Source: Tepidicaulis marinus (GTDB lineage Bacteria; Pseudomonadota; Alphaproteobacteria; Parvibaculales; Parvibaculaceae). Taken from it: a stretch of DNA of 64,000 nt. Position 1 is the first letter of the stretch; the number at the start of each line of letters is the position of its first letter. A model generated the notes under the pieces. It was not told the origin of the DNA. It was given only the letters and a program-made list of their open reading frames with translations, and did no database searches. The stretch covers positions 124,001 through 188,000 of the forward strand of contig NZ_BBIO01000004.1 of NCBI RefSeq assembly GCF_000739695.1, given 5' to 3'. Position numbers and translations under genes: made by a program. This document shows, one piece after another, positions 8,126 to 36,546 of this stretch.

Positions 8126-9589
8126 TTAGCGCTTGATCTGACTTGCCAGGAACTTGCGCGTTTTTTCCGTGTAAGGCGGGCGCATCATCTCGACGATGAA
8201 CTTGGCTTTTGCCTGCGTGTAAACCGACTTGGCATGGCTGAAGGTGCGGAACCCGTCGATGCCGTGATAGGAGCCCATGCCTGCCGGGCCGACGCCGCCG
8301 AAAGGCAGGTCTTCCTGAGCCACATGCATGATCACATCGTTCAGCGTCACACCGCCCGCCGTGGTGCGGGTGAGCACTTCCTTGTGCTCGTTCTCGTCCG
8401 GGCTGAAATGATAAAGCCCGAGCGGACGGGGATGAGCGTTGATGTAATCGATCGCCTCGTCGACTTTCTTATATCCCTTCACCGGCAAGAGCGGGCCGAA
8501 GATCTCTTCCTGCATGATCTTCATATCGTCGGTCGGATTGATGACCAGCGTGGGCGGGATCTTGTTGTAAGGCTGCTGAGTAAAGTCTTCATTCGCCGGA
8601 TTGATCTCGACGATGCGCGCGCCCTTCGTCTTCGCATCATCAAGGTAAGAGGTGATGCGGTCGTAATGGCGTTGGTTGATCACCGACGTGTAATCCGGGT
8701 TGTCCTTCAGCGTCGGATACATTTTCGAGACGGCGGATGTTGCCTGGGTGATGAACTGCTCAACCTTGTTCTCCGGCACCAGCACATAGTCGGGCGCAAG
8801 GCAGATCTGGCCCGCATTCATCATCTTGCCGGCCATGACCTTGGCGGCGGCGTCATCCATCGGCGCCTTGTCGGAAATAATGACCGGCGATTTGCCGCCG
8901 AGTTCCAGCGTCACCGGCACGAGATTTTCCGCCGCCGCGCGCATGACGTGATAGGCGATGGAGGTGGCGCCGGTGAAGATCAGATGATCGAAAGGCTGGC
9001 GCGAGAACGCCTCCCCGACCGCCGGGCCGCCGGTGACGACCGCGACTTCGGTTTCGTCATAAGCCTCGCGGAACATCCGGCTCATCAGCTCCGAGGTGGC
9101 CGGCGTGAATTCCGACGGCTTGATCACGGCGCGGTTGCCCGCTGCGAAAATACCGGCAAGCGGCGCCATCGTCAGGTTGACCGGGAAGTTCCAAGGCGAA
9201 ATGACGCCGATCACGCCGAGCGGCTGATATTCCACCCGCGCTTTTGCCCCGAACAGGCCGAGCGGGAACTGCACCTTGCGCTTTTCCGGCTTCATCCATT
9301 GTTCCAGATGCGCCTTGGCGTGTTTCAGCGGCCCGATGGAGCCCATTACGTCCGTCAGCAAGGTCTGCTCATGGCTGCGATGGCCGAAATCGGCGGCAAG
9401 GGCCTCTACGATTTCCTTTTGATAATCGACCAGCAGCCCGATGGACCGGTCGAGCCAGTCTTTCCGGCGCTTGACGCTGGGGGGGCCTTCGGCCAAATGC
9501 GCCGCCTTTTGACGGTCCACGATCTGGCGGATCGAGGCGGCAATGGACGCGCTATCGCCATCCGGCAAGTTCGATTCGGCAACGCTCAT
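8126..9589 (-). CDS. NAD(P)-dependent aldehyde dehydrogenase, coniferyl-aldehyde dehydrogenase-like
   Basis: A 487-residue ALDH-superfamily enzyme oxidising an aldehyde to its acid. Visible: SPWNFPVNLTMAP and KPSE (cofactor site), FTGATSIAYHVM, the general base region ELGGKSP (about 253), and the nucleophile in NAGQICLAPDYVL (about 287). The APDY after the catalytic Cys and the C-terminal PFGGVGPAGMGSYHGIDGFRTFSH segment are typical of the class 3/coniferyl-aldehyde and long-chain aldehyde dehydrogenase branch. The substrate could be an aromatic or fatty aldehyde. It is transcribed leftward toward the shared terminator and looks monocistronic. Confidence 0.88.
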   Translation of the reverse strand: MSVAESNLPDGDSASIAASIRQIVDRQKAAHLAEGPPSVKRRKDWLDRSIGLLVDYQKEIVEALAADFGHRSHEQTLLTDVMGSIGPLKHAKAHLEQWMKPEKRKVQFPLGLFGAKARVEYQPLGVIGVISPWNFPVNLTMAPLAGIFAAGNRAVIKPSEFTPATSELMSRMFREAYDETEVAVVTGGPAVGEAFSRQPFDHLIFTGATSIAYHVMRAAAENLVPVTLELGGKSPVIISDKAPMDDAAAKVMAGKMMNAGQICLAPDYVLVPENKVEQFITQATSAVSKMYPTLKDNPDYTSVINQRHYDRITSYLDDAKTKGARIVEINPANEDFTQQPYNKIPPTLVINPTDDMKIMQEEIFGPLLPVKGYKKVDEAIDYINAHPRPLGLYHFSPDENEHKEVLTRTTAGGVTLNDVIMHVAQEDLPFGGVGPAGMGSYHGIDGFRTFSHAKSVYTQAKAKFIVEMMRPPYTEKTRKFLASQIKR

Positions 9590-10967: not shown

Positions 10968-11140
10968 GTTCCCGGCGCGCCTAAACAAGCGGCAATTGAC
11001 GCTGCGTTTCCCGCGCTTTCTCACGCTCCGGTTTTGCGGGGCTTTACGCCCCCTTTCCCATGGATATGCTGACCGGCAACAAAGCCGGCCCGGCACTTTT
11101 GCGCGCGGCCTGGCGCTCATGGGAAAACGCGGAAGGTCTT

Positions 11141-11929
11141 ATGGAAACGGTACTTTATGAAGTCGCAGGCGGCGTGGCGAAACTCACGCTGAACCGCCCC
11201 GATGTGCTCAATAGTCTCAACACATAGCTGATCAGCGATATCCGCGCGGCCATTGCCGCCGCAAATGAGGACAAGGATGCCGGCGCCATTTTGATGACCG
11301 GCGCCGGGCGCGGCTTTTGCGCCGGTGCGGATCTGGCCAGCGGCGGCCCGCGCAAGGAAGGCGCGAGCACGGGCGAGAATGTCGCTTACGGCATGGAGAT
11401 CGCCTTCAACCCGATGGTGCGGGAAATCGCCGGCTCTGCGAAACCCGTCATTGCCGCCGTGAACGGTGTCGCGGCAGGCGGCGGCGTCGGCCTGGCGCTG
11501 TCCGCCGATATCGTGATCGCGGGCAAGTCCGCCTCCTTCGTGCAGGTTTTCGGGCCGCAGCTGGCGCTCATTCCGGATATGGGCTGCACCTGGTATCTGC
11601 CCAATCTCGTCGGCCGGGCGCGGGCCCGCGGGCTGGCGCTGCTTGGCGAAAAATTGCCGGCCGAACGCGCCGCCGAATGGGGCCTCATCTGGCAATGCGT
11701 GGAAGACGACGCGCTGATGGAAGAAGCGATGAAAATCGCCGCCAAACTGGCCGGCGGGCCTTCCAATGCCTTCGGGGAAATCAAGCGCGCGCTCGACAAT
11801 GCGCTGACGAGCGATCTGAGCACGCAGCTCGATTACGAGCGCGACACGCAAGGCATGCTGGGCGACCACCCGAACTTTGCCGAAGGCGTCACATCCTTTT
11901 TGCAAAAGCGCAAACCGAATTTCCAGTGA
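11141..11929 (+). pseudogene. Enoyl-CoA hydratase/isomerase (PaaG-like) interrupted by an in-frame TAG
   Basis: Starting from ATG 11141 (GGAAGG eight bases upstream) the frame encodes METVLYEVAGGVAKLTLNRP and would continue to 11929 as a 262-residue crotonase, but codon 29 is TAG (11225-11227). The context LNSLNT-stop-LISDIR matches the family where a polar residue, often Gln, is expected, so a single C-to-T change from CAG explains it. Downstream the frame is intact: GRGFCAGADLASGG, the oxyanion-hole AVNGVAAGGGVGLAL, and the PaaG-like IPDMGCTWYLP. Restart at ATG 11291 or 11294 would lack the first CoA-binding strands and has no ribosome site. The neighbour at 11984 is an intact paralogue. 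Recent inactivation, readthrough or sequence error are all possible. Confidence 0.8.
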
Positions 11930-11983: not shown

Positions 11984-12775
11984 ATGGATTTCAACAGGGT
12001 AAGGCTCGATATCGAGGGCACGACGGGCATTCTCGTGCTCAACCATCCGGAAGTCATGAACGCGGTTTCCGATGAAATGCTCGAAGGGCTGATGGATGCC
12101 ATGGACGCGGTGGAAGACCCGGCCAATGGCCTGCGCTGCCTGATCATGACGGGCGAAGGGCGCGGCTTTTGCTCCGGCGCCAACCTGCAAGGGCGCGGCG
12201 ATAATAAAGGCGGCGCGCCGGATGCAGGCTCGCGCCTTGAAACCGCTTACCACCCCTTCCTGCGCCGCTTGCGCAATCTGGAAATGCCGTTCCTGACGGC
12301 GGTGAACGGGCCGGCTGCCGGTGTCGGCATGAGCTTCGCGCTGATGGGCGATCTCGTGCTCTGCGCCAAGTCCGCTTATTTCCTGCAGGCTTTCCGCCGC
12401 ATCGGGCTGGTGCCGGATGGCGGCTCGACCTGGCTTCTGCCGCGCCTTGTCGGCAATGCCCGCGCGAAAGAGCTTTCGCTGCTGGCCGAAAAACTGCCCG
12501 CCGACAAAGCCCTCGACTGGGGCCTCGTCAACCGGGTCTATGAAGATGGCGACCTTCTCGGCGAAGCGAAGAAGCTGGCCGGCGAGCTTGCCGCCGGACC
12601 TACCGTCTCGCTTTCCATGATCCGCGAGCTTTACTGGGAGAGCACGGATAATACGTATGAAGAGCAGCTCAATCTCGAGCGCCAGAAACAGCGTATTGCC
12701 GGGCGCACGGACGATTTCAAGGAAGGCGTGAAGGCCTTTCTGGAAAAACGCCCGGCAAAATTCCAGGGCAAATAA
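11984..12775 (+). CDS. Enoyl-CoA hydratase/isomerase family protein (PaaG-like)
   Basis: A 263-residue crotonase-fold enzyme acting on CoA thioesters. Visible are GRGFCSGANLQGRG (CoA and oxyanion region), TAVNGPAAGVGMSFAL (oxyanion hole), and IGLVPDGGSTWLLPRLVG, where the Asp in VPDGG replaces the second catalytic Glu of classical hydratases. That replacement is characteristic of PaaG-type 1,2-epoxyphenylacetyl-CoA isomerases and related isomerases, so isomerase activity is as likely as hydration. GGGAGAGAGAG precedes the start. It forms a tandem pair with the disrupted paralogue 54 bases upstream. No other paa genes are nearby, so a phenylacetate role is not supported by context. Confidence 0.85.
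   Translation: MDFNRVRLDIEGTTGILVLNHPEVMNAVSDEMLEGLMDAMDAVEDPANGLRCLIMTGEGRGFCSGANLQGRGDNKGGAPDAGSRLETAYHPFLRRLRNLEMPFLTAVNGPAAGVGMSFALMGDLVLCAKSAYFLQAFRRIGLVPDGGSTWLLPRLVGNARAKELSLLAEKLPADKALDWGLVNRVYEDGDLLGEAKKLAGELAAGPTVSLSMIRELYWESTDNTYEEQLNLERQKQRIAGRTDDFKEGVKAFLEKRPAKFQGK

Positions 12776-35414: not shown

Positions 35415-36546
<1,132 letters not shown>

Follow-up and report, generated by a model that had tools for sequence, protein, structure and literature searches.

Does an in-frame stop codon in an otherwise open gene mark a gene that has just been lost, a codon that is still read as sense, or an error in the assembly? This question is raised by ECH1, a gene for a PaaG-like enoyl-CoA hydratase/isomerase located at positions 11141..11929 (plus strand; delimited by its open reading frame and by homology) of the 64,000-nucleotide stretch of Tepidicaulis marinus DNA analysed here, which we call the window. 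ECH1 is interrupted by a TAG at codon 29 (11225..11227, plus strand), read directly in the sequence. We consider it likely that ECH1 is a newly formed pseudogene, which arose through a recent C-to-T nonsense mutation changing CAG to TAG at this codon.

The interrupted gene and its neighbours

The ECH1 frame opens with an ATG at 11141, preceded by a likely ribosome-binding site (GGAAGG, 11131..11136, plus strand) that was recognized by eye and has the same letters in the congener, and ends with a TGA at 11927-11929. The 261 codons other than codon 29 are open and homologous to enoyl-CoA hydratases/isomerases, with no second stop and no indel. When codon 29 is replaced by X, the resulting 262 residues match Pfam ECH_1 (PF00378) over residues 9-262 with an E value of 1.2e-59; judged from the sequence, the homology across codon 29 is far beyond chance. 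The best solved structure is 4fzw_C, the 1,2-epoxyphenylacetyl-CoA isomerase PaaG, which aligns with residues 1-261 (E value of 2.2e-70), and the best NCBIfam match is also PaaG (TIGR02280). ECH1 thus resembles PaaG (TIGR02280; PDB 4fzw chain C) in both its top structural and its top family match, but differs from it in a score of 301 bits that lies under the family cut-off of 345.15; therefore, we do not file it as PaaG and name it no further than PaaG-like.

ECH1 adjoins an intact paralogue, ECH2 (11984..12775, plus strand), which matches NF004635 with 440.3 bits, above the cut-off of 351. As a nearby control, we used the aldehyde dehydrogenase-like gene at 8126..9589 (minus strand), for which several aldehyde dehydrogenase models match and none shown reaches its own cut-off. 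A reading made earlier from the window's sequence alone had described a single TAG in an ECH1 frame intact on both sides, next to a paralogue free of such a stop, and the homology on both sides of 11225-11227 and the open ECH2 frame confirm this description. In most family genomes, ECH1 and ECH2 stand in tandem, near GGDEF and aldehyde dehydrogenase genes. The host genome is a draft of 3,475,736 bases in 46 contigs, rated 99.98% complete. Of its 33 ECH_1 matches listed, ECH1 alone contains an internal stop; its 48 short-chain dehydrogenase matches have none.

Origin and age of the stop

One other species of the genus, G001, was compared. Over the length of the gene, its DNA shares 93% identity with ECH1 of the window, and codon 29 is CAG; the encoded protein is uninterrupted and 95% identical to that of the window over residues 1-262. 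Another 28 orthologues in the family encode K (8 genomes), Q (6), A (4), T (4), E (3), R (2) or P (1) at codon 29, showing that this position is variable and that many residues are tolerated. All 29 aligned orthologues, G001 included, have a sense codon here and none has a stop; all are homologous across codon 29, in alignments that start at residue 1, 2 or 3, which does not bear out the idea that orthologues begin at a start codon downstream of the TAG. Given the CAG of G001 and the lack of a stop in any orthologue, a C-to-T change is the simplest cause of the TAG. The comparison with sister genomes thus supports the proposal of the sequence-only reading, in which CAG-to-TAG was named as the simplest origin. 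We infer the direction of the change on the same grounds.

The events that would follow can be outlined. At codon 29, a C-to-T transition would have replaced CAG, which encodes glutamine, by TAG; translation would still be initiated at 11141 and would be terminated by release factor 1 after 28 residues. Termination would come before the ECH1 segments corresponding to the oxyanion-hole and catalytic loops of crotonase-fold proteins, roles that we presume to hold for these segments. The mutation would be recent relative to the split from G001, and it may still be segregating among strains.

The divergence from G001 bears on this timing. When the window is compared with G001, dN is 0.029 and dS is 0.246 for ECH1, with a dN/dS of 0.116, compared to 0.024 for ECH2 and to a median of 0.057 for 43 hand-picked window genes, 6 of which reach at least 0.116. 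In species pairs that we picked ourselves and that are not independent, values range from 0.051 to 0.134 for pairs with a broken copy and from 0.016 to 0.118 for intact pairs (rank test, p = 0.03). Constraint on ECH1 is therefore still visible between the two species, which we counted against the pseudogene reading; the low ratio would mostly reflect the time before the stop.

When changes were polarised with the family, the window's ECH1 lineage showed 9 changes at the first two codon positions and that of G001 showed 2, with 9 each at position 3; for ECH2, the corresponding numbers were 2 and 2 at positions 1 and 2 and 10 and 11 at position 3. This excess is weak (p = 0.065; 8 versus 2 and p = 0.11 when the TAG itself is set aside; Fisher p = 0.125 relative to position 3), and a single cluster, at codon 32, may account for as many as three of the changes. 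The branch lengths are 0.061 and 0.028 for ECH1 and 0.028 and 0.038 for ECH2. The earlier statement that ECH1 shows no further decay thus holds for stops and indels, of which there are no others, and is tempered by this weak excess on the window's lineage. Of the ECH1 replacements, five could be assigned to the window's lineage and one to that of G001 (p = 0.22). If only these five post-date the stop, about 15% of the branch could have been free of constraint; if all 12 replacements that are not on the G001 lineage do, the unconstrained portion would be at most about 27%. Measured against the species split, the stop would thus be recent.

The DNA around the TAG (11223-11238) forms a near-perfect 16-base inverted repeat, with 7 of 8 pairs in the window and 2 of 8 in G001. 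We considered a quasi-palindrome origin of the stop, in which the changes at codons 28-32, centred on 11231, would have raised the pairing from 2/8 to 7/8. Among 60,964 centres in the window, pairing changed by +5 in three and by -5 in two, and 166 clusters hold at least five differences in 13 bases. The repeat was found after looking, so this origin is not separable from chance, and we set it aside.

Broken copies of ECH1 across the family

The family search covered 40 genomes, and a search at the level of the order gave the same 40. ECH1 could be examined in 36 of them, since contig ends cut it in two (G019 and G002) and two incomplete genomes (G011 and G031) gave no ECH1 match at 1e-40. Three genomes (G020, G022 and G018) fell under the threshold of the first search and were added after inspecting their loci. 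With the window's genome included, ECH1 is broken in 7 of the 36, each time by a different lesion, and the remaining 29 copies have no stops and are matched along nearly their whole length.

Besides the TAG at codon 29 in the window's genome, one genome, G039, has a TAG at codon 68. We rejected the possibility that this is the same stop, as the codon differs; moreover, eight relatives checked have CAG or CAA at codon 68, and the G039 stop is therefore a separate event. Three further genomes form one clade (support of 0.999), in which ECH1 carries two 1-base deletions and a 7-base insertion (G030), a 1-base and a 4-base deletion (G020), or an in-frame 141-base deletion (G022). Since these lesions all differ, the clade either lost ECH1 three times or lost it once through a change that we do not see; small indels in draft genomes can also be assembly errors.

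In G034, an insertion-sequence-like element interrupts ECH1 near codon 65: the end of contig 5 and the start of contig 8 lie in what appears to be a single insertion sequence, seen from both sides, with terminal sequences that look alike by eye and a transposase-like end (PF13586, E value of 5.4e-4, under the cut-off). The G034 assembly breaks at the element (end of L147, starts of L140 and L148), and a short CTAG or TAG target repeat can be seen there by eye. In G018, a deletion has left the first 30 codons of ECH1 beside the last 66 of ECH2, most of which it removed (L146:4301-4583); with ECH1 codons 2-30 adjoining codons 198-263 of ECH2, neither gene survives, and the flanking genes are kept.

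The control genes fared differently. ECH2 is full-length and stop-free in 35 of the 40 family genomes and broken in 1 of 36 (G018), and the aldehyde dehydrogenase (8126-9589) has no stop in any of the 36 family genomes with a match, two of these matches ending at contig ends. In a comparison that was made after the lesions had been seen, the 7/36 broken copies of ECH1 differ from both controls pooled (1/72; Fisher p = 0.0018) and, less clearly, from ECH2 (1/36; p = 0.055). Counting the clade of G020, G022 and G030 once gives p = 0.015 against the pooled controls, and 5/36 against ECH2 alone (1/36) gives p = 0.20.

In the simplest account, several lineages can now do without ECH1 and are losing it, and the window shows one such loss at a very early stage. 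The family would tolerate the loss of ECH1 and mostly keep the neighbouring ECH2. We infer both the loss of ECH1 function in the window's genome and the dispensability of the gene. On its own, the window's copy would be an ordinary pseudogene and its history ordinary gene loss. The modest addition made here is the repeated loss of one partner of a conserved tandem pair of crotonase-fold genes, ECH1, with the other, ECH2, mostly retained, a pattern that points toward a degradation step dependent on conditions. The case also shows that sister genomes can place an isolated stop when reads are not at hand.

Other explanations of the TAG

The genetic code looks ordinary in this genome. Among 44 hand-picked window genes, TAG terminates 9, TAA 19 and TGA 16. 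Release factor 1 (prfA) is intact, with 355 amino acids and 518 bits against TIGR00019 (cut-off of 423.25). The sequence-only reading had called for a search for an amber suppressor tRNA; none of the 44 tRNA genes found with the Rfam tRNA model has a CUA anticodon as assigned by ARAGORN, a search that a degenerate tRNA could escape. Genes for tRNA-Gln with CTG and TTG anticodons are both present (ARAGORN). A reading of TAG as pyrrolysine was rejected, as none of three matches to the PylS model is above the cut-off. A readthrough-stimulating RNA structure was rejected as well, since the 90 bases 3' of the TAG fold no better than their shuffles (z = 0.25).

These results bear on amber readthrough, one of the three causes that the sequence-only reading had left open, together with a very recent nonsense mutation and an assembly error. 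Near-cognate tRNA-Gln(CUG) could insert glutamine at UAG and so provide a low level of working enzyme. The tRNA with the CTG anticodon exists, glutamine is the residue of G001 and codon 29 varies in the family, so the inserted residue would be tolerated. Furthermore, ECH1 has a dN/dS far under 1 in the comparison of the two species, and Belinky et al. 2021 (PMC7918605) argue that in-frame stops in bacterial genes are often under purifying selection. Nonetheless, the lack of a suppressor tRNA among the 44, the intact release factor 1, the unremarkable fold of the 90 bases past the stop, the absence of the stop from every relative and a tendency of the changes on the window's lineage toward relaxed rather than kept constraint all weaken this explanation, which is without positive support and which we regard as very unlikely. 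In a variant of it, the TAG would be kept to lower, not abolish, ECH1 expression through low-rate readthrough by near-cognate tRNA-Gln(CUG), and the damage to ECH1 in the family would reflect selection for less isomerase beside an intact ECH2; we find this variant highly improbable. Translation might also start again within the gene, at the first in-frame TTG (11291) or ATG (11294) 3' of the TAG, and yield a shortened working protein. The residual frame (11291..11929, plus strand) runs through 212 codons without a stop and still encodes the loops aligning with the central region of PaaG. However, no Shine-Dalgarno-like run is seen by eye at the usual spacing before 11291 or 11294, the product would lack its first 50 or 51 residues, the stretch aligned with the N-terminal part of PaaG, and a downstream start is seen in none of the 29 aligned orthologues. 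We regard this explanation, too, as very unlikely.

A consensus or assembly error, with C as the real base at 11225 and an intact ECH1, is unlikely, if less so than the preceding explanations. The lesion is a single substitution in a gene with no other, the assembly is a draft of 46 contigs, and most of the broken copies in the family likewise come from draft assemblies. Against such an error, isolated false stops are uncommon in this genome, as seen from its ECH_1 matches listed (1/33) and its short-chain dehydrogenase matches (0/48). Moreover, one miscalled base is not expected to bring about the weak surplus of first- and second-position changes on the window's lineage, and within the same assemblies ECH1 is broken repeatedly and the two control genes hardly ever. 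A very recent nonsense mutation, with a stop that no aligned orthologue shares, is the best supported of the three causes.

ECH1 as a pseudogene formed by such a mutation also fits the description given by Belinky et al. 2021 (PMC7918605): in-frame stops in bacterial genes are widespread and mostly short-lived, the genes that carry them are often at a dN/dS below 1, and readthrough is discussed as a temporary way to lower expression. Like the cases in that study, one of which illustrates TAG and CAG, ECH1 has an in-frame stop in a conserved gene with a dN/dS below 1. It differs from the main set described there, which comprises stops common to at least two species, in that its stop occurs in one genome only, and from those cases in that other lesions break ECH1 in relatives.

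A programmed recoding event in the same window offers another point of comparison. In prfB (release factor 2), as in ECH1, a stop interrupts what is one continuous homologous protein. Unlike prfB, which combines CTT TGA C with a change of frame, ECH1 has no shift, no signal was found at its TAG and its stop is not conserved. The prfB gene lies at 35415-36383 on the minus strand, and CTT TGA C, which we take to be a known kind of +1 frameshift site, is found at 36480-36474 after a GAGGAGG run; there, a short upstream frame starting MRAEIQ joins the main frame.
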